Positions 36,310-51,356 of a stretch of 64,000 nucleotides of DNA are shown piece after piece. Below the pieces are notes generated by a model. The model had not been told where the DNA came from. It was given only the letters and a program-made list of their open reading frames with translations, and did not search any database. Numbering within the stretch: position 1 is the stretch's first letter; each line of letters starts with the position of its first letter. The translations under genes and the position numbers were made by a program. Origin of the DNA: Pseudooceanicola sediminis (GTDB lineage: Bacteria; Pseudomonadota; Alphaproteobacteria; Rhodobacterales; Rhodobacteraceae); NCBI RefSeq assembly GCF_003575965.1, contig NZ_QWJJ01000014.1, positions 62,001 to 126,000 on the forward strand. Direction: 5' to 3'.

Positions 36310-38373
<2,064 letters not shown>

Positions 38374-38409: not shown

Positions 38410-38434
38410 AACAAGGCCCTGTTCCGATTGTTCC
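38410..38434 (-). promoter_or_regulatory. Candidate EcfG promoter of katE
   Basis: Minus strand: GGAAC, 16 bases, TGTT; consensus GGAAC-N16/17-cGTT. The -10 end is 37 bp upstream of the katE start and the element lies between the EcfG-like sigma gene and katE. Confidence 0.65.
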
Positions 38435-38468: not shown

Positions 38469-38999
38469 TTACGGTGGAGCCTCCGGTTCGGGTGGTTCGG
38501 GCGAAAGGTCGGCCATGACTAGTGCGCGGGCACGGCTGACGCGGCTTTTGATCGTACCGGTGGCGCAGCCGCAGATCCGCGCGGCGTCTTCGTAGCTTTC
38601 GCCTAGCGCGACAACCAGGAGCAGGGCTTGGCGAAAATGATCTGGCAAACGGTCGACGGCGGCCATCAGTTCGTTTCCTGCGACGGTCCAGTCCTGCGTG
38701 GCTTGGACGATAACCGTGCTGGCGACGCAATCCTCGACACCGGTGGGTTCGCGCGTACGCTTGCGGATATTGGTGTAGAAGGTGTTGCGCATGATGGTGA
38801 ACAGCCAGGCACGCAGGTTGGTACCTTGGTGGAACTTGTTGCGATAGCGGATCGCCTTGAGCAGGGTTTCCTGCACCAGGTCGTCGGCATCGTCGCGGTT
38901 GCGGGTCAGCGAGCGGGCAAAGGCGCGCAGTGCCGGGATCATCTGGACCACGAGATCCGGGTCGAGAGAGACCGACTGGGTCTGGGAGTCATGCGTCAT
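38469..38999 (-). CDS. ECF sigma factor, EcfG-like
   Basis: 176-residue RNA polymerase sigma factor. Region 2: ALRAFARSLTRNRDDADDLV and NLRAWLFTIMRNTFY. Region 4: LPDHFRQALLLVVALGESY followed by EDAARICGCATGTIKSRVSR, which matches the EcfG (ECF15) type governing the alphaproteobacterial general stress response. No NepR anti-sigma or PhyR regulator is in the window. Its start overlaps the preceding glycosyltransferase stop by 11 bp, so it is translated with the glycan cluster. Likely targets include the adjacent katE (inference). Confidence 0.93.
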   Translation of the reverse strand: MTHDSQTQSVSLDPDLVVQMIPALRAFARSLTRNRDDADDLVQETLLKAIRYRNKFHQGTNLRAWLFTIMRNTFYTNIRKRTREPTGVEDCVASTVIVQATQDWTVAGNELMAAVDRLPDHFRQALLLVVALGESYEDAARICGCATGTIKSRVSRARALVMADLSPEPPEPEAPP

Positions 39000-39969
39000 G
39001 CGTAGCGATTTGGGGCAGTCCAAAAGGGGAGATCCGTGTGTCACCTGCCAGAATGCCTTCCAGCCGGCGGATGTGGGGCGCGAGCTCGCTCGCGCGGAGC
39101 CGCTGGTCGGGCGGCAGATGCGGCGGCCAGACACCAAGTGTGCCCTGCGCGCGGTGCTTCACCAGCCAGTCCGGCGGCGGCAGGGCATCGTCGATCAGGT
39201 AGTCACTGCCGCAGGTGCGATCACGAAGCGCTGCTGCCATGCCACCCTTGGCGCGACCTGCAAGGCGGCATGACGCCTGTACCCGCACGTCGCCCGCATG
39301 ACGCACGCTATGACCGGCGGTTTTCAGGCGGCGGACAAGATCGCGGTCCTCGCCCGTGGCAAGAGCGCGGAAGCCGCCGACGGAGAGGTAGGTCGCGGCG
39401 CGCAGGGCAAGGCTGGCGCCTGCGGCTTCGCCATGGTGATCGGATGGGCTGGTGGTTTCGGGCGCGTGGGCGGCGTAGAAGGCCAGCACCAGCGCGCGAT
39501 AGCGGCCCTCCATCGTGGCAAGTTGTGCGTCCATCCGGTCCAAGATCGCGGCTTCACTGACCATCGGGGTAACGTGGCCACAAACGGCTTCGACTTCTGA
39601 CAGATGGCTCAAACTCCGCTCCAGCCAGTCGGGAGCGACTATGCAGTCGGCGTCGGTGGTCAGGATATGGGCCAGTCTGGGTTGGGTGCGCAGGGCGGCG
39701 GCGGCACCGCGGGCCCGGGCCGTTCCGACGCCCTGTGAGGGTGTCAGGCGCAGGGTCTGCACAAGGATCGGCACGGCGGTCTGGTCGGCGAAGGCGCGCA
39801 CACGCTCGGCGGTGTCGTCCGCGCTCTCGCCGGCCGTGTTGTTGACCACGACATGGATCGCGGCGCGGGTGCCGCATTGCGCAACCAGGGCCTGAAGGCA
39901 GAGCAGGATGCGCGCGGATTCGTTTCGCGCCGGGATGACGATGGCGGTGGGGCAGAGGAGGTCAGGCAT
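38989..39969 (-). CDS. Glycosyltransferase family 2
   Basis: 326 residues, GT-A fold: N-terminal TAIVIPARNESARI, DxD-type metal site TTDADCI (about 107-113), acceptor-side GGFRALATGEDRDLVRRL (E-D motif). Soluble, no membrane helices. Seventh gene of the eight-gene overlapping cluster: start overlaps the methyltransferase stop by 8 bp, stop overlaps the sigma start by 11 bp. Sugar donor and acceptor unknown. Confidence 0.88.
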   Translation of the reverse strand: MPDLLCPTAIVIPARNESARILLCLQALVAQCGTRAAIHVVVNNTAGESADDTAERVRAFADQTAVPILVQTLRLTPSQGVGTARARGAAAALRTQPRLAHILTTDADCIVAPDWLERSLSHLSEVEAVCGHVTPMVSEAAILDRMDAQLATMEGRYRALVLAFYAAHAPETTSPSDHHGEAAGASLALRAATYLSVGGFRALATGEDRDLVRRLKTAGHSVRHAGDVRVQASCRLAGRAKGGMAAALRDRTCGSDYLIDDALPPPDWLVKHRAQGTLGVWPPHLPPDQRLRASELAPHIRRLEGILAGDTRISPFGLPQIATHDA

Positions 39970-40525
39970 GATCGGCCCCCGTGGCTCGGTCTATGCGGTA
40001 TCCTTGGGTGCGGCGCAGGAGCGTAAAGCGGCGGGTCGGCATCGCGGCGGTAAAACAGGCCAGCGACTGCTCGCCGCTGAGCGCATGGCTGGTGTTGCCG
40101 AGGTAACTGACGCACAGCAACTCGGCCCTTGGCCAGCGCCCCTCGATGTCGCGCGCAAGGTCGGTGATTTCGTCGGCGTCGAGGAAATACAGGATCTCGG
40201 ACAGCACGATCAGGTCGAATCTGGTGGTGGGCAGGGCGCAAGGCAGAAACCCTTGTATGAAACGCCCCTGCGGGAGCGCGCTTTGCGCGGCCAGCAGTGC
40301 GGTCTCAACGGCATCCAGCCCGGTGTAGCTGTTGCAAAGCGGCGCAAGATGCCTGGCCAGAGCGCCATTCCCACAGCCCAGTTCCAGCGCCGCTTCGTAG
40401 CGGTCATGCGACAGGGCGGCACGGGTGGCGCGGAACTTTTCCTGCTCGTACGGGCTGGTGGCGAAATGCCACGGGTCATCGCCATTGGCATAGATCGCTT
40501 GTAAGGCGCTGGCGGTAACACTCAT
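39962..40525 (-). CDS. SAM-dependent methyltransferase (NodS-like)
   Basis: 187-residue class I methyltransferase. Motif I ELGCGNGALARHLA, motif II/III region TRFDLIVLSEILYFLDADE. The N-terminal DPWHFATSPYEQEKF resembles NodS-type N-methyltransferases that modify deacetylated sugars. Placement right after a PIG-L N-deacetylase (ATGA overlap) fits methylation of a freed amine (inference). Confidence 0.85.
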   Translation of the reverse strand: MSVTASALQAIYANGDDPWHFATSPYEQEKFRATRAALSHDRYEAALELGCGNGALARHLAPLCNSYTGLDAVETALLAAQSALPQGRFIQGFLPCALPTTRFDLIVLSEILYFLDADEITDLARDIEGRWPRAELLCVSYLGNTSHALSGEQSLACFTAAMPTRRFTLLRRTQGYRIDRATGADHA

Positions 40526-41268
40526 GCTCGGATTCTCCAGAAAATCTCGTCCTCGGTCAGGAATTTTTCGACAAAGCCGGGGGCGATGGTGAACCCGTCG
40601 GGGTCGTCGAAGACGCGTTGGCCAAGCTGGCTGGCGTGGGCTTGGATGGCTGCGCGTTTGCGCGCGTGCGCGGGGGCAGTACGCAGCAGAAACGGGCGGT
40701 GCCGCGCGATGGTCCGGGCGAAGTTCGGATCGTCCCAGCGGGACCAGACCGGATAGCTGTAAAGCCGCAGACCGGGGCAGAACGCCAGCACGCGGCGGGC
40801 GATGTCGGCGGTGACCTTGTGATCGGCGTGGTGATCTTCCTCGGCGGGGGCAAAGAGGCGGTGCGCGCCGAGGGTGCGGCAGATTTCGGCGATGCTGCGC
40901 GCGACGGCGACCCTGTCCGACAGGTACAGCCGACTGTCGGACAGGCCGAGCCAGGTCAGGTCCGTCGGCCAGCCGCCGAGGTGCACGATGGCCTGTTCCA
41001 GTTCCTGCCGACGCAGGCAGGACAGGCGCTGTGGCGGCCAGTCCTGGGAGCCCGGGTGCGAGGCGGCACCATCGCTGACGCAGATGACGTGGGCGCCGCG
41101 ATCAGCAAAGGCATGGGCCAGCAGAGCGCCGCAGCCAAGGGATTCGTCATCCGGGTGGGGGGCGAGCACGACGGTCGGGCGGGTGCCGGTCAGCGTGGCG
41201 GCGCTGACATGGCGGCCGGGCAAGGTGGTGGCGCGGGGCCGGTTCTGAGGAAGGTCATGCACACTCAT
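40522..41268 (-). CDS. PIG-L family N-deacetylase
   Basis: 248-residue zinc-dependent LmbE/PIG-L deacetylase, which removes N-acetyl groups from GlcNAc-type sugars. Zinc motif APHPDDESLGCG and the downstream EEDHHADH segment are intact. I start at 41268 (MSVHDLPQNRP), where ATG overlaps the stop of the preceding gene (ATGA). The NodS-like methyltransferase follows by another ATGA overlap, suggesting consecutive steps. Confidence 0.9.
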   Translation of the reverse strand: MSVHDLPQNRPRATTLPGRHVSAATLTGTRPTVVLAPHPDDESLGCGALLAHAFADRGAHVICVSDGAASHPGSQDWPPQRLSCLRRQELEQAIVHLGGWPTDLTWLGLSDSRLYLSDRVAVARSIAEICRTLGAHRLFAPAEEDHHADHKVTADIARRVLAFCPGLRLYSYPVWSRWDDPNFARTIARHRPFLLRTAPAHARKRAAIQAHASQLGQRVFDDPDGFTIAPGFVEKFLTEDEIFWRIRA

Positions 41269-42341
41269 CCGACCAGGTCCCACAGGGCGCCATCGCGCGT
41301 GAAGGCATGGTCGGCCAGCCGCATCAGCATTGCGTCGCGCGCCGCCTGGCGCATGTAGACCGACAGGTCCTGTGCCATCCGCAGCGTGGTGGAACCGGGC
41401 CCGAAATGGCCCAGCCCGAGGCTTTGTTCGACCGCGCGGACGGTGTCGAGGCCCAGCTCTTCGGTCATCAGACGCGTGGCTATGGAGGTGGCGACGCTAT
41501 CCTGCGCGGCCTCGCTGGCGGCGCATTGCGCGGCGTGGCGGACCAGCGTGGCCGCCGCCAGGGCGCGGGTCAACTGGGTGGCAAGGCGTGTCTTCTGCGC
41601 CTCGGCGGCCATGCGGTCTCGTCCGCGCAGGGTCTTGGCGGCAGTATCGAGCAACCCGAGCGCCGCGCCCAGTTGCAGCGCCGCGATGCGCCAGACGCCG
41701 CCGACGAAATGTGGTTCGCGCAGATAGTCGCCGGGTCCGCCGATCCAATCAAAGGCCGACAGCGTCAGCCCGTCGCAGTCGAAGCGGCCCGAGGTGGTGG
41801 CGCGCATACCGGGCATCTGCCAGGCGCTGGCATCGGAACGCGCGGCATCGCTGGCGTCGATCAGGGCCAGGCGCACCTGGGGGCCGGAGTTCACGGTGAT
41901 GATCGCATGGGTAGCGGTGCCAAGGCCCGAGGCAAAGACCTTGGCCCCGGTCAGGCAACCACGGGCGCTGTCCCAGGTGACGGGATCAGGGCCATCGGCG
42001 CCCCAGACGCCCAGCAGTCCGCCGGCCAAGATCAGCCTTTCGATGCGGTTTTGCTGCGCTGGTCTGGCGTGGGCACGCAACAGGGCCAGCGCGTTGACGT
42101 GCCCTTCCCACAGCCGCCCGAGCGAAAGGTTGACGGCGCCGATGCGCATCAATCGGTTCGCTGTCGCGTCCGGCGTGCGCAGGCCATCGTCAAGCATCAG
42201 GCCAGCGCGGTGCAGCAGCGCGACGGATCTGGCGATGGCGGCTGTGCCCGCGTCCTCTTGCTCGGCGTTCAGGGCGAGGGTGTCGAGGATATCGACAAGC
42301 TCGGTACGGGGGGCAGAGGTCGGGCGCAATGGCGAGGTCAT
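41265..42341 (-). CDS. Acyl-CoA dehydrogenase-like protein
   Basis: 358 residues with the ACAD fold: middle beta-domain (GCLTGAKVFASGLGTATHAI), C-terminal helices ending GLGHFGPGSTTLRMAQDLSV. It is divergent and I cannot place the usual catalytic Glu, so it may act on a carrier-bound or amino-sugar substrate or be non-dehydrogenating. Start at 42341 by ATGA overlap with the glycosyltransferase. Such ACAD relatives recur with PIG-L and glycosyltransferase genes in other bacteria, but the reaction is undescribed as far as I know. Confidence 0.8.
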   Translation of the reverse strand: MTSPLRPTSAPRTELVDILDTLALNAEQEDAGTAAIARSVALLHRAGLMLDDGLRTPDATANRLMRIGAVNLSLGRLWEGHVNALALLRAHARPAQQNRIERLILAGGLLGVWGADGPDPVTWDSARGCLTGAKVFASGLGTATHAIITVNSGPQVRLALIDASDAARSDASAWQMPGMRATTSGRFDCDGLTLSAFDWIGGPGDYLREPHFVGGVWRIAALQLGAALGLLDTAAKTLRGRDRMAAEAQKTRLATQLTRALAAATLVRHAAQCAASEAAQDSVATSIATRLMTEELGLDTVRAVEQSLGLGHFGPGSTTLRMAQDLSVYMRQAARDAMLMRLADHAFTRDGALWDLVG

Positions 42342-43369
42342 GCGGTCACCGCGCGCTGAGGGCAAAGGGCGGTTTCGTGCAGCAGTTGCGACCATTGTGC
42401 GGCGACGTTGCGCAGGCGGAACTGCGGGTTGGCCTGGACGTCGGGGGGTGTCGTCTGCCAACGCTGGATGACTTGGGCAAGGTGCGCGGTGTCAAGGGTG
42501 CTCAGGTACTGGCCGGGCGTCAGCACCTCTTCGTTGGCGCCAAGGGCGGCGCTTGCAAGGACCGGCGTACCAACCGCATTGGCCTCGGCCATCACGAGGC
42601 CGAAGGTTTCGGCAAAGCTTGTCTGGGGCATGAACAGGCAAAGCGCGCGGCGCATCTGGCGCATCAGCGCGCCGTGCGAAAGCGTACCGAGGAAGCGGAC
42701 GTTTTTGGGCACGGGTCCGGTGTTCCAGCGCAGGTAACCCGGATCGGCGACGGCAAGCGTGAGGTCAGGCAGCACCGCGCGCAGGGCATCGAAGCGGCCG
42801 AAAACCTCGGCCAGGCCCTTGTGCGGAGAACTGGCAAACAGCAGGCGGTTGGGATCGCGTCGGGTCGCGTCAGGCGCCAGCGTGTCGGCGATAGGGTTGT
42901 AGATGAAGCCGGTACGGGGCAGGGCGCCGTCGCCCAGAAAGGCGCGCAGCCAGTCCATGTGGCTGCGCGAGACGCAGATGATACGGACCCCGGCGGCATG
43001 AAGCGCCGGACCCATCTTGCGGTTGTGGCGACCCGGGCGAATGTGCAGCCACAGCAGGATCGCGGCTTCGGGGTGCAGCTTGCGCAGCTTGACCGCGACC
43101 TTCCAGGTGTTCAGCACGATTATCACGTCCGCCCCGGCCGGCCCCGCAGAAAGAGGTAGCATCAGCCCTGCTGAGGTGGCCAGCGGCTCGCGCCGGGTGG
43201 CCTGGTAATGGCGTACTTCAAAGTCGCGGGTTAGCGTGGCGCAGACGCGCAGCACGGTCGCCTCGGTCCCACCCAGGCCGCCACGGGTCAGCGACAGTGG
43301 ATCATAGGGCGCGCCGCAGCACGGATCGACGATGGCGATCCGCGGGCGGGACCGGTGCGGGCGGGACAT
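42338..43369 (-). CDS. Glycosyltransferase, GT4-like (GT-B fold)
   Basis: 343 residues. N-terminal GGLGGTEATVLRV is the donor-loop glycine motif; C-terminal nucleotide-sugar site includes SFAETFGLVMAEANAVGTPVLAS and the E-x7-E pattern. The LLFASSPHKGLAEVF segment is typical of GT4. Start at 43369 (MSRPHR) by TGATG overlap; an ATG at 43378 adds three residues. Part of the coupled cluster. Confidence 0.88.
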   Translation of the reverse strand: MSRPHRSRPRIAIVDPCCGAPYDPLSLTRGGLGGTEATVLRVCATLTRDFEVRHYQATRREPLATSAGLMLPLSAGPAGADVIIVLNTWKVAVKLRKLHPEAAILLWLHIRPGRHNRKMGPALHAAGVRIICVSRSHMDWLRAFLGDGALPRTGFIYNPIADTLAPDATRRDPNRLLFASSPHKGLAEVFGRFDALRAVLPDLTLAVADPGYLRWNTGPVPKNVRFLGTLSHGALMRQMRRALCLFMPQTSFAETFGLVMAEANAVGTPVLASAALGANEEVLTPGQYLSTLDTAHLAQVIQRWQTTPPDVQANPQFRLRNVAAQWSQLLHETALCPQRAVTA

Positions 43370-44376
43370 CAGGTGCATACGGCAGCCTTTTGGGGGGCGG
43401 AGAGCGGAGGGGAGACAAGCGCGGGCCCTTGGGCGAATTCCGCCAGCAGCCGGGTGATGCTTTGGTGCGTTGCCTGTGTGGTGGGAATATCGCGCCGCGC
43501 GAGCTGCGCGGGGTTCGTAACCTCGGCCAGCGCCAGACCGGGCAGGTCGATCTGCACTGGGGGAATGGTGCCGGTTGCGCGCCATCCGCGCACCTTGGCC
43601 CAAACGCGCTGGCGGTCGGCGCGACGGCGGTCGCTGTCGTAATCCGACGCGGCGGACTGTGTCAGGCTGTCGGGTGTCTCGATCTTCGTCAGCAGCAATT
43701 CGGGGATGACCCACATGATTTCGCCGTTCAACATCAGACGATTACGCAGTTCGCGATCCTCCTCGATGATGTCGTCGAAGCCGCCGTTACGGCGCAGCAC
43801 ATCGGTGTGGAACAGGCCAGAATTGATATGGGTCCATTCACCCGGCACGCGCGCGCCCATTTGCAGGTTGGGAAAGACGTCATCCAACAATGACAGATCA
43901 CGCCGAATCGCCACGCGCTGACCATCGGGCAGGATCAGCTCGTGATGCACCAGCGCCACGCCGACTTGGAGGCGGGTATCGGCCTGCCGTCCGATCAGCT
44001 GCCAGTTCAGGCAGGCATCGGCACCGATGTCCTGGCGTGTCAGTACGCGAACTTGGTGCAGCAGCTTGTCGCGGTGTGGAATGTCGTCGGAATCGTGAAA
44101 GGTGACGGCGGGACCATCGGTCAGCAGTAGCCCGGCGTTCTTGGCCTGCGCCGTGCCAACGTTGCGGGCCAAACGAATGTAATTGAAATCCGCACGATCA
44201 AAGAACGGCATCAGCGCCGCGCGGGTGTCGTCGTTGCTGGCGTCGTCGATGACTGTTACGCGGCGATTCCACCACGATTGTTCCAGCGCCGCACGCACGG
44301 CTGTCACGACCATGTGCGCCCGGTTGTAGGTGGGGATGATGATGTCGACGCAGGGAGCAAGTTCCGGCTGTGTCAT
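43369..44376 (-). CDS. Glycosyltransferase family 2
   Basis: 335 residues, GT-A: VDIIIPTYNRAHMVVTAVRA, D-x-D-like HDSDDIPHRDK (about 92-102), and GGFDDIIEEDRELRNRLML on the acceptor side. No membrane segments. Start 44376 overlaps the previous stop (ATGA). It probably adds one sugar to the growing glycan; specificity not readable. Confidence 0.88.
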   Translation of the reverse strand: MTQPELAPCVDIIIPTYNRAHMVVTAVRAALEQSWWNRRVTVIDDASNDDTRAALMPFFDRADFNYIRLARNVGTAQAKNAGLLLTDGPAVTFHDSDDIPHRDKLLHQVRVLTRQDIGADACLNWQLIGRQADTRLQVGVALVHHELILPDGQRVAIRRDLSLLDDVFPNLQMGARVPGEWTHINSGLFHTDVLRRNGGFDDIIEEDRELRNRLMLNGEIMWVIPELLLTKIETPDSLTQSAASDYDSDRRRADRQRVWAKVRGWRATGTIPPVQIDLPGLALAEVTNPAQLARRDIPTTQATHQSITRLLAEFAQGPALVSPPLSAPQKAAVCT

Positions 44377-45824
44377 GGCATGTCTTTCTGAAGGGCGCAG
44401 TCGACCGCGCGGCGGTAACTGTGCAGGTGGCGGGCGGTCAGCAGTGCGGCGGGCAGCGGCAGTATCAGCGCCAGCGTCGCAGCGCCGATCAGCGGCCCGA
44501 GATGCAGGGCTGTCGGAAGCGCGAGCAGTGCGGCAACCATGGGCAGGACGTGATGCGCCGAGATGTCGTGGCCGCGTCTTGCGGTGCGGGGTGATTTGTC
44601 GGTGACGGCAAAGCCCGTGCGGCGACCAAGCAGCGTGGCAAGCGTGGCCAGTGCCGCCACCGGGGTCAGCGCCAGGCGACTGGCCAGCGCGCTGGCGATA
44701 TGGCGCGTCGACAAACCGTCGCGGATGCCGCGGTAGATCAGCCGCCAACCGAGGTCATAGAGGCTGAGCAATATCGTCGCTGCGCTGAGCAACATAATCG
44801 GCAAGCTGCCCAGCCCGCTGAGCAGGCACAGGATGAGTATGACCGCGGGCAAAAGCGAGAGGTTCAGCCAGGCTGTCAATTGCGACAGAACGGCCAGACG
44901 TCTTGGCAGGCTGAGCCCGCAGCGCCGCGTGGCAAAAAGTGCGGTATGATGCAGCAGCGTCTGAAGGTTGCCGCTGGCCCAGCGATAGCGCTGCTTTTCC
45001 AGGCCGCGCAGGCTGAGAGGCAAAAGGCCCTTGCCGACCACTTGCGAGATGAAGTGCCCCGTATAGCCCGCCCGGCAAAGGTAGACGCCAGTATCCGCGT
45101 CCTCGGTGGTGGTGGCCATGGACCAGCCGCCGATTGCCAGCAGCGCGGGGTGCGATATGACGCAGAGCGTGCCGGTAAGCAGAACAGCTTCGGCCCCGTC
45201 GGCAAGCTGGGCGGCGGTGCGGAAATACTCCTCCAGATCGGCATCGACGCCAGGCGCGATTTCGGAGGATAGATCATATGCCTGTGGAAACTGTACATAG
45301 TCTGCACCTGTGTCGGCCAAGGCGCGGGCGGCGGCGCTCAGGAAATGTGGCGCGACCCGGTAGTCGGCATCGACGGTGACGATATGGGTGGCATCGGGAC
45401 GGGTCAGCGAAAGCGCGATGTTCAGTGCCCCCGCCTTTGCGCCGCCTACGCCCATGCGGTGTATGAAGTTGATGTTGCGGGGGCCGTCACAGAACTCTGC
45501 CACGGGTTGCCACAGCGCGGGATCGGCGGTGTTGTTGTCTATTACAATGATCTCATAATCCGCCTCGGCCCAGTCCTGCGCCAGGAGCGTGCGCAGGGTC
45601 TGGCACACCATGGCGGGCGGTTCGCTGTGGATCGCGACGTGAATCGAGAAGACAGGGGTACCTGATTGCCAGGTGGGCAGGGTGCGACCACTGCGGTCGG
45701 GCTTGCAGATTTCGCCAGCGAGACGCAGCGCGATCAGGACAACTTGCAATGCGAACACAAGTGAAGTGATCAGTAGCGCCGCGTTCGAGATGAACACCGA
45801 AAAGCTGGCAAGGCCAACGAACAT
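44373..45824 (-). CDS. Membrane-bound processive-type glycosyltransferase (GT2, BcsA-like)
   Basis: 483 residues and first gene of the cluster. One N-terminal helix (8-35), a cytosolic GT2 domain with VDADYR, TTTEDADTG and the QRYRWASG (QxxRW) motif, then several C-terminal helices. These are the cellulose/hyaluronan/NodC-type synthase motifs, so it may polymerise a sugar, possibly GlcNAc given the PIG-L gene downstream (inference). The upstream 220 bp should hold the cluster promoter; I see no EcfG-type site there. Confidence 0.88.
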   Translation of the reverse strand: MFVGLASFSVFISNAALLITSLVFALQVVLIALRLAGEICKPDRSGRTLPTWQSGTPVFSIHVAIHSEPPAMVCQTLRTLLAQDWAEADYEIIVIDNNTADPALWQPVAEFCDGPRNINFIHRMGVGGAKAGALNIALSLTRPDATHIVTVDADYRVAPHFLSAAARALADTGADYVQFPQAYDLSSEIAPGVDADLEEYFRTAAQLADGAEAVLLTGTLCVISHPALLAIGGWSMATTTEDADTGVYLCRAGYTGHFISQVVGKGLLPLSLRGLEKQRYRWASGNLQTLLHHTALFATRRCGLSLPRRLAVLSQLTAWLNLSLLPAVILILCLLSGLGSLPIMLLSAATILLSLYDLGWRLIYRGIRDGLSTRHIASALASRLALTPVAALATLATLLGRRTGFAVTDKSPRTARRGHDISAHHVLPMVAALLALPTALHLGPLIGAATLALILPLPAALLTARHLHSYRRAVDCALQKDMP

Positions 45825-46046
45825 CCTCCACCCCCTTAGGTGTTGTTATCGCTGCAATACCTCAGCATCACTCTTGAAAAGGAGGCAGGCACACGCCTCA
45901 GGCAACAGACGACGCGTGCAGTCTCCCGCGCCATACCAATGGTCGCGGGAAACAGAACGCTCGTCGCTGAGAGGGTATGCCGTCGGGGACGGTCGCGCTT
46001 TAAACTGGATTTAGGCGGATGATGATTTGGGTACCGATGCGCGGTA

Positions 46047-46796
46047 TCACGCCTGCGTGCCGTCGCTCGGCAGCCAGGAAATATCGATGTCGTCGTACCG
46101 ATTATGAAAGTCAGTCATCTCGCGAAGGCGGTCTTCGCGAAGGATTTGTATGTGGAGACCGTCACGGCGAATGTAGCCTTCAACCTCCATCCGCGAAAAT
46201 GTCTTGCTGATATAGACATTCGTCAGGCCGAGGTATTGGGCAATCTGGGTCTGGTTCAGCGGCAGGCGGAATCTGTCTGTCAGCTCGGAGCTGGTAATCC
46301 GCAGCCGCGCGATCAGATCCAGCAACATGTAGCCGATGCGTTCGAGCGCGCTCATCCGGCCCATGGCACGCAGCAGGTCGATCAAAACGACCTGATCGCG
46401 CAGGGCGAGGGACATCAGAAGTGCAGTCAGACGCGGAGACGTACGAAAGACCTCGTCCATCGCCTGCTTGGCGAACGGGCAAAGGACCACATTTTCGACG
46501 GCACACAACGAGGTTGAAACATCCTTCAGTGCGATATCGGTAAAGCCGACAATGTCGCCGGGATGATGAATTTTCACGATCTGTCGTCTGCCGTCCGGCA
46601 TGTCGGCATAGCTGATAAGCCAGCCGCGCTTGACGACAAACAGCTCCTTGTTGGTATCGCCGCCTTGATAGATTTCCTGCCCAGCCTGGTAATTCCGCTC
46701 GGACTTCTCGATCTCTCGCAACAAGGCGCGGTCGGTTTCGCTGAGGGGGACGTAATGCTGCAGCTTGGTGACGAGGCAGCTTGATGTCTTTTGCAT
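46047..46796 (-). CDS. Crp/Fnr family transcriptional regulator
   Basis: 249 residues: cyclic-nucleotide-like sensor domain (YQAGQEIYQGGDTNKELFVV, HHPGDIVGFTDIAL), long dimer helix, and a winged helix with LPLNQTQIAQYLGLTNVYIS. The N-terminal cysteine cluster needed for an Fnr iron-sulfur centre is absent (only C7 and scattered ones), so it is not an oxygen sensor of the Fnr type. It lies 222 bp upstream of the glycan cluster on the same strand and could regulate it; no binding site found. Confidence 0.9.
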   Translation of the reverse strand: MQKTSSCLVTKLQHYVPLSETDRALLREIEKSERNYQAGQEIYQGGDTNKELFVVKRGWLISYADMPDGRRQIVKIHHPGDIVGFTDIALKDVSTSLCAVENVVLCPFAKQAMDEVFRTSPRLTALLMSLALRDQVVLIDLLRAMGRMSALERIGYMLLDLIARLRITSSELTDRFRLPLNQTQIAQYLGLTNVYISKTFSRMEVEGYIRRDGLHIQILREDRLREMTDFHNRYDDIDISWLPSDGTQA

Positions 46797-47476: not shown

Positions 47477-48523
47477 TTAAGGGGCCGTCTCCTCGGCCTT
47501 GGCAAACAAGCCCGTCAGGGCCGTTTGGATGATCGAGGTCACACGGGGGCGTCGACCCGGTGAGAACGGCATTGGACGGCAAACCTCCATGGCGGCGACA
47601 CCGACGCGGGCTGTCAGGGCGCCGTTGACCACGCCTTCGCCGAACCGCCGCGACAGGCGTGCCAGCAGGTTACCCCCAAGGACCGAATGCAGCATGTCAT
47701 CGCCCATGGCCACAGCACCCGTCGCGACGAGGTGGGACATCACGGCCCGCAACAGACGCCAGCTGCCCAGCGTCCCGGATCGCCCGCCATATACTTCGGC
47801 AATGCGGCGGATCATGCGCACATTAGAACTGAGCGCGGTAATGACGTCGGCAAACGCCAGGGGCACGAGCGCGGTGACAGTGGCAACCTGGCGGGCAGCC
47901 GCCTCGACTTCGCGGCGCGCGGCAAGGTCGAGAGGGGCAAGAAGCTCCGTTTCCGTCAGGGCCAGCAGCGCGGTGGCATCGAATTGTTCGTCCCGCCGCT
48001 CCGAAAGACGCTCGACATGCCACTTCAACTCGGGTCGCGTGGCATAGAGCGCTGAAAGGCTCTTGGAAAAATCGCGTGCCTTCGAAAGATCGTCGAGTGC
48101 CGCAGCTTCGGTCGCGCGGACATGCAGATGATCCATGCGCGCCAGTCGCGCGAAGGCAGACAGTTCCTTTACCACGATAGCGAGCGCGACGAGCAGGAAT
48201 GCCGCGATGAGGGCGGCGACACCATAGCCGAGCCAGGGCGTGCTGGTGACAAGGCCGATGACGAAATTCCAGGCGGCGGTGGAGATGACAACACCGATCA
48301 GCGCAGCAAGCAGGGACCAGAACCATCGGGCCAGACGCGAGGGCTTGCGGCTCGCCAGGACGGCGGCCGAGCGCATTGCGTTCCCGCGTGTCCCATACCC
48401 TGGCTCGTGCTCGGGCACTGGCGGGGCCGCATCGGGACCCGGAATGGTGTCCTCGTTGCCATATTCGATCAAAACGGGTCCGCGTGCGCGTGGTTCCGTC
48501 TGTTTCGAAGGGGTATCGCTCAT
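47477..48523 (-). CDS. TIGR01620/YcjF-like membrane protein
   Basis: 348-residue inner-membrane protein of the DUF697/YcjF group. Proline-rich cytosolic N-terminus, two helices (about 66-92 and 97-118), then a helical C-terminal domain (VATVTALVPLAFADVITAL). It is always found with YcjX, an arrangement linked to phage-shock/envelope stress in Gammaproteobacteria. Start at 48523 overlaps the GNAT stop by ATGA. Confidence 0.88.
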   Translation of the reverse strand: MSDTPSKQTEPRARGPVLIEYGNEDTIPGPDAAPPVPEHEPGYGTRGNAMRSAAVLASRKPSRLARWFWSLLAALIGVVISTAAWNFVIGLVTSTPWLGYGVAALIAAFLLVALAIVVKELSAFARLARMDHLHVRATEAAALDDLSKARDFSKSLSALYATRPELKWHVERLSERRDEQFDATALLALTETELLAPLDLAARREVEAAARQVATVTALVPLAFADVITALSSNVRMIRRIAEVYGGRSGTLGSWRLLRAVMSHLVATGAVAMGDDMLHSVLGGNLLARLSRRFGEGVVNGALTARVGVAAMEVCRPMPFSPGRRPRVTSIIQTALTGLFAKAEETAP

Positions 48524-49035
48524 GCCGTATCCTGCCTGTGAACCTGAGGTTTCTGCCAGATCATCAAAACTTCGGGCAAGGCTTCGTCATTGCCGCTGCC
48601 ATCGCCATAGGCGGCCGTTGAAAACCCTTCGGCGGCGTAAAAACGTCGCGCCGTGTTGCTCTCTACTGGTGTCCAGAGCGCGAGCAGCGTGCGGGTCGCC
48701 TTTGCCTCTGACAACAGGGCGCGGCCATGTCCACGGCGGCGCGCGCGTGCATGGACATAGAGAGCATGGATCAGATCGCCTTCGCGCGCGATAAAGGCGC
48801 AAGGGCCATCGTCGTCGCAGATCAGGCGGACGGAGCCGCGCAGTACCAGCCGGACCAGCAAAAGCACATCCATCCCCCGATGGCGGACCTGCGGCATCCA
48901 ATCGGTGTCACGGGTAAAGCTCCACAGGATGCGGGCAAGCGCGGGCACATTGTATAGGCGCGCGGGCCGTGGCACGACGTCGCGCCGGGTACGATCCGTG
49001 GCAGCGGCGAAGGGACGCAACGCGCGCGCGATCAC
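48520..49035 (-). CDS. GNAT family N-acetyltransferase
   Basis: 171 residues. The acetyl-CoA loop is ALYVHARARRRGHGRALLS (R/Q-x-x-G-x-G/A pattern). The start is a GTG at 49035 that overlaps the YcjX stop (GTGA); there is no suitable ATG before MPQVRHRG. Inserted between ycjX and the ycjF-like gene with overlaps on both sides, so it is likely co-translated. Substrate unknown. Confidence 0.83.
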   Translation of the reverse strand: MIARALRPFAAATDRTRRDVVPRPARLYNVPALARILWSFTRDTDWMPQVRHRGMDVLLLVRLVLRGSVRLICDDDGPCAFIAREGDLIHALYVHARARRRGHGRALLSEAKATRTLLALWTPVESNTARRFYAAEGFSTAAYGDGSGNDEALPEVLMIWQKPQVHRQDTA

Positions 49036-50450
49036 AACCTGTCCCCGATCAGGAATTGGGCGGCACGGTCCAGGCGAATGTGTGGCGGCCCTTCGCCGGG
49101 CTTCAACGATATATCGGCAGGTGCAAAGGACATGATGGAATAATCCTCGTCCAGCCACTGATCGCCGGACAAATGTCCGCGCGTTATGCGGCTGGGATCC
49201 TCCGGCAAGGCGCCGGGATACATGGCAGCCTGCTTCCCGGTGTCCAGCAGACGGCCACGAACCGCCTGCAGGGCGGCACCTTCATGCCGGATTGTCTCCT
49301 CGACTGTGGCGCGTAGCGACGCGATGGACATGGCCTGCGTTCTGGCACCGGCAAAATCGGCACGTGAGATCGCATTGCTGACCAGGGCTTCCATGATTGC
49401 GGTCAGGCGCGCGTGCTGAGTGTGATGCAGATGATCTGCCTTGGTGGCCGCGAACAGGATCTTTTCAACGCGTTTACCCAGCAGCAGACGTGACGCCCAG
49501 GCGTTGCGGCCGGGGCGGAAGGCCGACAGGATCCCCTCCAGCCCCCTGTTGAGGTCATCGACGGCTGCGGGTCCCGCATGAATTGCCGAAAGCGCATCGA
49601 CCAGGACGACCTGACGGTCGATCCGCGCAAAGTGTTGCTGAAAGAACGGCTTCACGACGCGGAATTTATAGGCCTCGTACCGACGCTCCATCTCTCGCCA
49701 CAGGCTTTTGCGCGGCGCGCTGTCCTGTGGCGGCAGCGGTGCGAAGGTCAGCACGGGCGAGCCCTCCATTTCACCGGGCAGCAGGAACCGACCCGGGGTC
49801 ACATCGGACATGCCTTCAAGCCGCGCCTGACGCAAGTAGGCCGTATAGCTGCGGGCAAGCGCCTGGGCGTCTGGTTCCTGCCAGGTCCCGGTGGCGGCAG
49901 CAGCCCGCGCAGCATCGAGAAAGTCGGAGCCGTAGGAGCGCGCGTCCATGCGCGCCAGAACTTCGCGGGACCACTCAGCGTAGGTCTTGTCCATCAGGGG
50001 CAGATCCAGCAGCCATTCGCCGGGATAGTCGATGATGTCCAGGTGCACGGTGCGCGGCCCGGACAGACCGGCGATCAGACCCGCAGGACGCACGCGAAAT
50101 GACAGGCGCAATTCGGAAATGGTGCGCGTGCTTTCCGGCCAGTGTGGCGCAGGACCGGTCAGCGCGGCGAGGTGAGCCTCATAGTCGAAACGGGGCAGGG
50201 TGTCGTCAGGTTGGGGTTGCAGGTAGGCGGCAAGGATGCGGTTGTCAGCCTCTGCCAGCAACTGCGGCATTCTTGAACGGTTCAACAGGTTGGCGACAAG
50301 AGAGGTAATGAACACGGTCTTGCCGGCACGTGCCATACCCGTCACGCCCAGGCGAATGACCGGTTCAAAGAACGTCTCGGATAACGTGTCACCAACAGTT
50401 TCAATCTGTCGTGTTATGCCATCGGTCAGCGAGGTAATGCCAAATGCCAA
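49032..50450 (-). CDS. ycjX: YcjX-family P-loop GTPase-like protein
   Basis: About 472 residues (E. coli YcjX 465). Walker [11 protein letters not shown], and [13 protein letters not shown] as the NKxD-like specificity element (TKAD). The start is unclear: the frame lacks an early ATG. I chose the TTG at 50450 (reading as [11 protein letters not shown]) with AGGG about 8 bases upstream, because family proteins begin GLTSLSDGI; a TTG at 50513 would lengthen it by 21 residues. First gene of a coupled trio, divergent from truA. Confidence 0.88.
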
Positions 50451-50573
50451 ACGTGTTGCCCTGCCAGTCTGTTGGGTTTTTACATAGATAGACGGGGTGC
50501 GCGCGGTTTCCAAGGTTGCGTGGCTGTGCAGGAAGGCATTGCCCGTGTCGCGCGGATTAAGTATTTGCCGGAC

Positions 50574-51356
50574 ATGCCCAGATACGCCTTGAAAATCGAA
50601 TATAACGGAGCGCCCTTCGCCGGTTGGCAGAAGCAGGCCGAGTTGCCCTCAGTCCAGAGGGCAATCGAGACCGCTCTGGACCGGTTGGAGGCAGGCGAGC
50701 ACCAGATCGCGGCGGCGGGGCGAACGGACGCCGGAGTGCATGCCCTTGGTCAGGTGGCTCATTGCGACACGACGCGCGAATGGACGCCCTTCCGTCTGCA
50801 AGAGGCCGTCAACTTTCACCTCAAGCCACATCCGATTGCGCTGGTCGATGTCGCCCCGGTCGCACCGGACTGGCACGCGCGCTTTTCAGCGCAGGAGCGT
50901 CATTACATGTTTCGCATCGTCATGCGCCGCCCCCCGGTGACGCATGAGGCCGGGTTGGTTTGGCAGGTCAAAAGGCCATTGGATATCGAACGGATGCGTG
51001 CCGGGGCGGCCCGACTGATTGGGCACCACGATTTCACGACGTTTCGCAGCACGATATGCCAGGCGAAAAGCCCATGTAAAACGCTGGATGAAATTCGGAT
51101 CGAGGAGTTCGACGGCGCGTCCGGACCGGAGATGCGCCTTTATGTGCGCGCCCGCAGCTTTCTGCACAACCAGGTTCGATCGATTGTCGGCACGCTTGAA
51201 AAGGTCGGCGTCGGGGCATGGGACCCCGAGGACGTCTCGAGGGCACTGGAGGCGCGGGATCGGGCGGCGTGCGGACCGGTCAGTCCGCCGCACGGGTTGT
51301 ACCTCGAAAGTGTCCGGTATCCCGAAGATCCGTTTGCCGGGATCTCCGGGGAATAA
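50574..51356 (+). CDS. truA: tRNA pseudouridine(38-40) synthase
   Basis: 260 residues, isomerises U38-U40 in tRNA anticodon arms. Catalytic D52 in [16 protein letters not shown]; other motifs [41 protein letters not shown]. Starts at 50574 ([10 protein letters not shown]). Converges on the DegT gene. Confidence 0.97.

Follow-up and report, generated by a model that had tools for sequence, protein, structure and literature searches.

A conserved cassette for a putative tailored amino-sugar glycan, with a possible general stress link, in Pseudooceanicola sediminis and other bacteria

Sphingomonas melonis Fr1 has a series of EcfG-dependent glycosyltransferase genes, and about 40% of the EcfG-dependent genes of S. 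melonis have no assignable function (sections of PMC6599016). Several species are known to have accessory EcfG paralogues (parts of PMC8103513), and background on flavoenzymes is given in portions of PMC5481743, PMC6165268, and PMC9832474. A gene cluster relevant to each of these subjects lies in a 64,000-nucleotide stretch of Pseudooceanicola sediminis DNA (contig NZ_QWJJ01000014.1, positions 62,001 to 126,000), referred to as the window. It comprises eight minus-strand genes, A to H (45824-38469), for glycosyltransferases, sugar-modifying enzymes, an enzyme with the acyl-CoA dehydrogenase (ACAD) fold, and a sigma factor. The reading favored here, with a probability of roughly 50%, is that A to G form a conserved cassette for a glycan or glycoconjugate with a tailored amino sugar and that this cassette belongs to the general stress response of alphaproteobacteria. 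The sigma factor gene H is outside the conserved cluster.

The core of the cassette, conserved in Pseudomonadota, is D, E, and F and usually G. D (41265..42341; this and all other window genes described are on the minus strand) encodes a candidate ACAD-fold flavoenzyme of 358 amino acids (aa) without the dehydrogenase catalytic Glu; E (40522..41268; 248 aa) encodes a PIG-L/LmbE-family deacetylase with HPDDE and HHADH zinc motifs; F (39962..40525; 187 aa) encodes a NodS-like S-adenosylmethionine-dependent methyltransferase; and G (38989..39969; 326 aa) encodes a GT2 glycosyltransferase whose best NCBIfam match, MftF, is far below its cut-off. A scan of 84,980 species genomes with a single peptide pattern returned 332 relatives of D, the best 80 of which were used for counting (several pairs of these loci come from the same genome). 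Within 3 kb of D, E was found in 74 and F in 73 of the 80 loci; 68 loci had both, and D-E-F-G formed one run in 48. Evenly drawn Pseudomonadota genomes (n = 398) gave a similar picture: D was detected at an E value of ≤1e-20 in 34, including the genome of the window, and 29 of the other 33 yielded a locus of about 4 kb (four gave none), with E in 25, F in 27, and both in 23. The joint presence of D, E, and F in 68/80 and 23/29 loci indicates a genuine cassette. It is also found in Deinococcus and Nostoc.

The longer, seven-gene form adds A (44373..45824; 483 aa), a membrane GT2 of the BcsA/PgaC/NodC type with a QRYRW motif at residue 278; B (43369..44376; 335 aa), a GT2 glycosyltransferase; and C (42338..43378), a GT4 glycosyltransferase of 346 aa if translated from the ATG at 43378 or 343 aa from that at 43369. 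Most occurrences of this form are in Rhodobacterales, and a KatE-type catalase gene and a Crp/Fnr gene are often nearby. Of the 117 cluster loci in the combined set (111 distinct, six being duplicate stretches), 27 (24 distinct) contain the five genes A, D, E, F, and G. Recurrence of the order A to G in other genera makes the arrangement more than chance and bears out the proposal, made in an earlier note based on the sequence of the window, of a single co-oriented glycan cluster. The order of modules is variable: L026, L027, and L065 have A-B-C-K-G-D-E-F (K being the catalase gene), and in L092 A-B-C is divergent.

The distribution of the cassette is patchy. D was found in 3 of 22 other genomes of the genus and, at an E value of ≤0.001, in 24 of 295 genomes drawn from the family, a count that includes the genome of the window and six weak matches; these six and one in the genus (E values of ~1e-3 to 1e-5) were treated as generic ACADs. 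Several copies are plasmid borne: a tblastn search of plasmids with D gave 45 records, e.g., from Sulfitobacter, Deinococcus, Paracoccus, sphingomonads, Methylobacterium, and one Nostoc. In 11 of the 12 stretches inspected from this search, genes for a PIG-L protein and a methyltransferase come after D, ten of them by annotation and the unannotated Nostoc stretch (L017) by similarity. A helicase gene intervenes between the cassette genes in Deinococcus radiodurans (L016), and a Methylobacterium plasmid (L015, excluded from the combined set) carries D without E or F. Patchy spread together with plasmid copies suggests that the cassette has moved horizontally. Other recurrent neighbors were left unused, as several of the unlabeled groups resemble shadow frames of the opposite strand.

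A stress link is suggested by promoter motifs. The EcfG-type motif GGAAC-N16/17-YGTT was sought in the 300 nucleotides (nt) before the operon, with same-strand 300-nt windows of the same loci as controls, after two loci with <250 nt upstream and five near-duplicates had been removed from the 80. It was present before 25 of the 73 remaining nonredundant operons and in 41 of 4,231 control windows (Fisher P = 4e-29). The controls may themselves contain genuine stress promoters, which makes this test conservative. Operons led by A had the motif in 10/12 cases (13/15 with near-duplicates), and a wider set of relatives with both A and D had it in 20 of 27 (three of the 27 being duplicate stretches) with a slightly looser pattern. 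Several observations weigh against a general stress role for the cassette. The strict motif was absent from 48 of the 73 loci, including the C-B-C-D-E type of sphingomonads and Brevundimonas, and it was sought before A in the window without success. In six loci from outside the class of the window (L219 to L224), no match directly preceded the cluster on the cluster's own strand, and three of them (L219, L220, and L221) had matches elsewhere. Instead of a strict motif, the window has a degenerate, EcfG-promoter-like GGAGAC...TGTT with shortened spacing (45904..45926, minus strand) that precedes the start codon of A by 102 nt. The motif is 100 to 109 nt from the operon in 13 of the 20 motif-bearing relatives, and the window element, its equivalence judged from position and flanking sequence, looks like a decayed EcfG site. 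The stress association postulated in the earlier note stands in a changed form, through putative EcfG-type promoters before the operons of many relatives and not through H as the cluster's own sigma factor.

A KatE/HPII-type catalase gene (K; 36310..38373) follows H in the window and is a frequent neighbor of the cluster elsewhere, with a KatE-type gene within the fetched flanks of 19/80 loci. Between H and K lies a candidate EcfG-type promoter, GGAAC...TGTT (38410..38434, minus strand), 61 nt before the catalase start, and K may be a separate general-stress target. In L026, L027, and L065, a KatE-type catalase gene is within the glycan cluster rather than merely adjoining it.

The sigma factor encoded by H (38469..38999; 176 aa) was the headline of the earlier note, which presented it as the cluster's own EcfG-like sigma factor, translated in stoichiometric coupling with the glycan genes. 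This is the part that fails to generalize. H matches sigma-70 regions 2 and 4 and PhyR_sigma2 (56.3 bits; cut-off, 27) and thus has a region 2 of the EcfG/PhyR type, as expected for an EcfG-like extracytoplasmic function (ECF) sigma factor. An H-like ECF gene was present in 1 of the 117 cluster loci (L109), about 9 kb from D and on the opposite strand, and a G/H junction was present in none. Co-occurrence of the genes elsewhere, the absence of which would have counted against the earlier reading, holds for A to G, mainly in Rhodobacterales, with D-E-F also in other phyla, and breaks down at H. Likewise, the absence of H from the clusters of relatives means that stoichiometric coupling is no general design. 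The neighborhood count and the location of H relatives together rule out H as a cassette member. Its nearest relatives in the family draw (68 to 69% identity) are in two genomes (G137 and G097) with no D match listed among the best few first-look candidates scored per genome; a third genome (G196) has relatives of both D and H, about 446 kb apart. Strong H relatives in the genus are limited to 2 of 22 other genomes: in one (G007), the cluster and the H relative are on different contigs, and the other (G002) gave no match to D.

H is an accessory EcfG paralogue. It is not encoded with nepR and phyR, as a primary EcfG gene would be; the only NepR match of the genome, its best PhyR_sigma2 match, and another EcfG (50% identical to H) are side by side on contig 41, which is taken, on the basis of these matches, as the canonical general-stress locus of the PhyR-NepR-EcfG type. 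An exact GGAAC-N16-CGTT element precedes the aligned sigma start by 72 to 107 nt in 8/8 family relatives of H, chosen from the eleven best family genomes. In the two genus relatives, the distance to the aligned start is about 180 nt for the element of L229 and about 1.6 kb for the only one in L230. As the sigma genes of relatives are located behind such elements of their own, H would normally be a separate accessory sigma gene and appears to have moved to the end of the operon in this genome. In L179, L180, L183, L184, and L186, H-type sigma genes, again preceded by GGAAC-N16-CGTT elements, have ligD-, MgtC-like, or DUF892-like genes at distances of up to about 5 kb.

Alternatively, H could be a dedicated, autoregulatory sigma factor of the operon, with the A promoter having drifted (GGAAC to GGAGAC with shorter spacing) to fit it, which would give this lineage a glycan switch that amplifies itself. 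The position of H as the last operon gene, overlapping G by 11 bp, the degenerate element 102 nt before A near the position of the motif in relatives, and the absence of a strict motif directly before the H gene of the window, in contrast to the eight chosen relatives, are consistent with such a switch. The evidence comes from a single genome, however, the promoter change may be plain decay, and the canonical GGAAC/CGTT elements of the relatives suggest normal specificity, so that a dedicated role for H is considered unlikely.

The least familiar member of the core is D, described in the earlier note as ACAD-like. The fold is as expected, as it extends over the whole of D; the catalytic position is not. 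The (Y/F)EGT-type motif that carries the catalytic Glu beyond the last conserved Asp in ACADs is absent, and the aligned column contains A (49), P (7), V (6), or T (1) in 63/63 family members. This column was identified by aligning D with an L018 ACAD that has the FEGT motif; D325 served as the anchor, and a manual ungapped extension led from there to the Glu. Some ACADs carry the catalytic Glu at another place, and the check on D covers the FEGT-type position. Annotated records inspected name relatives of D acyl-CoA dehydrogenases although the usual base is absent in the aligned members. In comparisons with PDB sequences, a D profile matched DszC at an E value of 1e-19, the best acyl-CoA dehydrogenase at 2e-11, and the sugar N-oxygenases DnmZ, KijD3, and ORF36 at 6e-9 to 9e-8; judged by sequence, D is nearest to group D flavin monooxygenases of the DszC type. 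Structural comparison placed group D monooxygenases closest by Foldseek rank, while VIA-align gave ties with ACADs, and the fold was thus not decisive as a discriminator between dehydrogenase and monooxygenase.

D might instead be a true acyl-CoA or acyl-ACP dehydrogenase that desaturates the fatty acyl group of a glycolipid. Its fold ties with short- and medium-chain acyl-CoA dehydrogenases, and Pfam recognized Acyl-CoA_dh_1 in 21 of the 63 family members at an E value of ≤0.001 (with dh_2 in 13, dh_N in 10, and dh_M in 8). Desaturation is nevertheless improbable given the residues at the Glu position in all 63 members, the status of DszC proteins as nearest solved sequences, and the lack of any Pfam match or ACAD domain at E ≤ 0.001 for the window D alone, which has a weak match to SfnB. 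D is probably not a normal acyl-CoA dehydrogenase. The ACAD-like proteins of two Deinococcus loci (L012, 8591-9790; L016, from 8777 onward) have an additional N-terminal part of about 400 residues; that of L012 has no Pfam match, and the addition weakly resembles a nearby L012 gene annotated as a family 1 glycosylhydrolase.

Of the remaining enzymes, A matches Glyco_trans_2_3 of GT2 and, weakly, a CelA/PgaC (BcsA/PgaC-like) profile, and its Q-R-x-R-W motif, conserved in 19/19 aligned A proteins, and four hydrophobic segments in a hydropathy scan are compatible with A being a processive membrane synthase where the cluster is long. E scores 84.8 bits against PIG-L (cut-off, 28.2), and 72 of the 74 E proteins that were aligned carry either HPDDE or HADDE; diacetylchitobiose deacetylases are the second and third matches among its solved relatives, the first being an “uncharacterized protein.” F scores 51.1 bits against the NodS-like family of Pfam (cut-off, 24) and has two PDB matches, 4isc (deposited as “Methyltransferase”) and then NodS (3ofj).

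Gene content, synteny, distribution, promoter enrichment, fold, the missing Glu, and the intact PIG-L and GT2 motifs were all computed, and a conditional scheme can be built on them in which the use of flavin, the activity of the promoter, the substrate, the sequence of reactions, the product and its location, and the benefit are putative. Glycosyltransferases (G in the core and A, B, and C in the longer form, with A acting as a processive membrane synthase) would build a chain or conjugate containing an N-acetylhexosamine. E would remove the N-acetyl group, D may oxidize the exposed amine or a neighboring position with a flavin, and F would then methylate the product. In many alphaproteobacterial relatives, transcription would start from an EcfG-type promoter; in the genome of the window, the promoter position looks decayed and the accessory paralogue H is now the last gene of the putative operon. 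A bolder version may be offered tentatively and is unlikely as a whole: D-E-F-G would be an unrecognized pathway, present in at least three phyla, in which the amine exposed by the PIG-L protein is N-oxidized by an ACAD-fold flavoenzyme of a new subfamily and methylated by F; the N-oxidized, methylated amino-sugar conjugate would be a general-stress protectant, and the operon would have captured its own EcfG paralogue, so that the switch may amplify itself.

Two other products were considered. The earlier note was reminded of Nod-factor chemistry, in which case A would make a chitin-like oligosaccharide, E would deacetylate it, F would N-methylate it, and a lipo-oligosaccharide would be exported. 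The NodS-like matches of F and the QxxRW motif of A are in agreement with this. Scores are nonetheless far below the equivalog cut-offs for NodC (550; A, 21.0 bits; B, 39.1 bits) and NodS (300; F, 61.7 bits), E belongs to PIG-L rather than to the NodB-type deacetylases, no NodA- or NodB-type family of Pfam or NCBIfam matched A to H, and A is outside the run in 34 of the 48 loci that retain D-E-F-G. We also know of no counterpart of D in Nod-factor synthesis. The resemblance is therefore thin, and Nod-factor synthesis is a poor model; a product of this type is highly improbable. The second candidate is a small soluble protectant in the style of mycothiol or bacillithiol, for which a glycosyltransferase and the PIG-L protein would make a glucosamine glycoside, to be turned into an antioxidant by F and D. 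The closest NCBIfam families of E and C are BshB1 (49.6 bits; cut-off, 182.5) and MshA (28.5 bits; cut-off, 462.5), and the cluster often neighbors a catalase gene. Every equivalog cut-off was missed, though, C is not part of the four-gene core, and no ligase family of the MshC or BshC type in Pfam or NCBIfam matched A to H, making such a protectant doubtful.

The layout of the window locus is as first described, with all junctions overlapping, by 4, 1, 4, 4, 4, 8, and 11 bp from A/B to G/H (the B/C overlap is 10 bp rather than 1 if C begins at the upstream ATG). Short overlaps are annotated among the cluster genes of relatives too, with small gaps at some junctions instead, and are thus unremarkable in themselves. 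A Crp/Fnr-type regulator gene (R; 46047..46796) is upstream of A and has the same place in several relatives. Farther upstream, DUF697 and YcjX-like DUF463 genes are present (47477-48523 and 49032-50636). In several genera, the island of the long cluster includes cation:proton antiporter, MgtC-type, Crp/Fnr, and DUF892 genes in the same order (L010, L057/L071, L072-L074, L086, L104, and L129); no catalase gene was found within the stretch fetched for L086 and L104.

The individual gene families are all known. That their combination had not been described as one system, as first suggested, agrees with open-license PMC full texts, where no paper joining them was found; the passages of PMC7784981 and PMC3416667 consulted contain relevant words, but not as one cluster. 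The cassette is thus an uncharacterized, widespread, apparently stress-linked amino-sugar cassette: a conserved, product-orphan set of biosynthetic genes near catalases and behind putative general-stress promoters in many environmental bacteria. It provides a defined, testable enzyme set for one possible protective output of the stress response, and D represents a subfamily of ACAD-fold enzymes named dehydrogenases despite absence of the usual catalytic base.

Among described enzymes, DszC and TdsC (414 to 417 residues) are about 55 to 60 residues longer than D and share 15 to 20% identity with it. F161-x-S163-G of DszC aligns with an F-x-S-G stretch of D, and DszC His92 aligns with Arg76 of D; residue numbers were counted on the HMMER alignment, and the part of PMC9832474 consulted names neither Ser163 nor His391. 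Group D monooxygenases use a separate reductase, and no reductase family of Pfam or NCBIfam matched A to H. The residue at the S163 place is not decisive, because Ser or Thr is usual there in ACADs as well. Like the PIG-L/LmbE deacetylases BshB, MshB, and diacetylchitobiose deacetylase, E exceeds the family cut-off with intact zinc motifs, but it is below the equivalog cut-offs of BshB1, BshB2, and MshB and adjoins genes for an ACAD-fold enzyme and a methyltransferase. The cluster shares with Nod-factor synthesis (NodABC and NodS) a NodS-like methyltransferase, a processive-type GT2, and probable N-acetyl removal, differs from it in the extra ACAD-fold enzyme, and is conserved in many genera that, to our knowledge, are not nodulating symbionts.

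The closest regulatory parallel for the cassette is #3505-#3509 of S. melonis Fr1, which are likewise consecutive glycosyltransferase/exopolysaccharide genes under the general stress response (portions of PMC6599016); the words “acyl-CoA dehydrogenase” and “LmbE” do not appear in the main text of that paper. For H, an EcfG-like sigma factor in a genome that also has a PhyR-NepR-EcfG-type locus, the parallels are the accessory EcfG paralogues SigU and EcfG2. What sets H apart is its overlap with the final gene of a glycan operon, in place of a solitary position behind an EcfG-type element.

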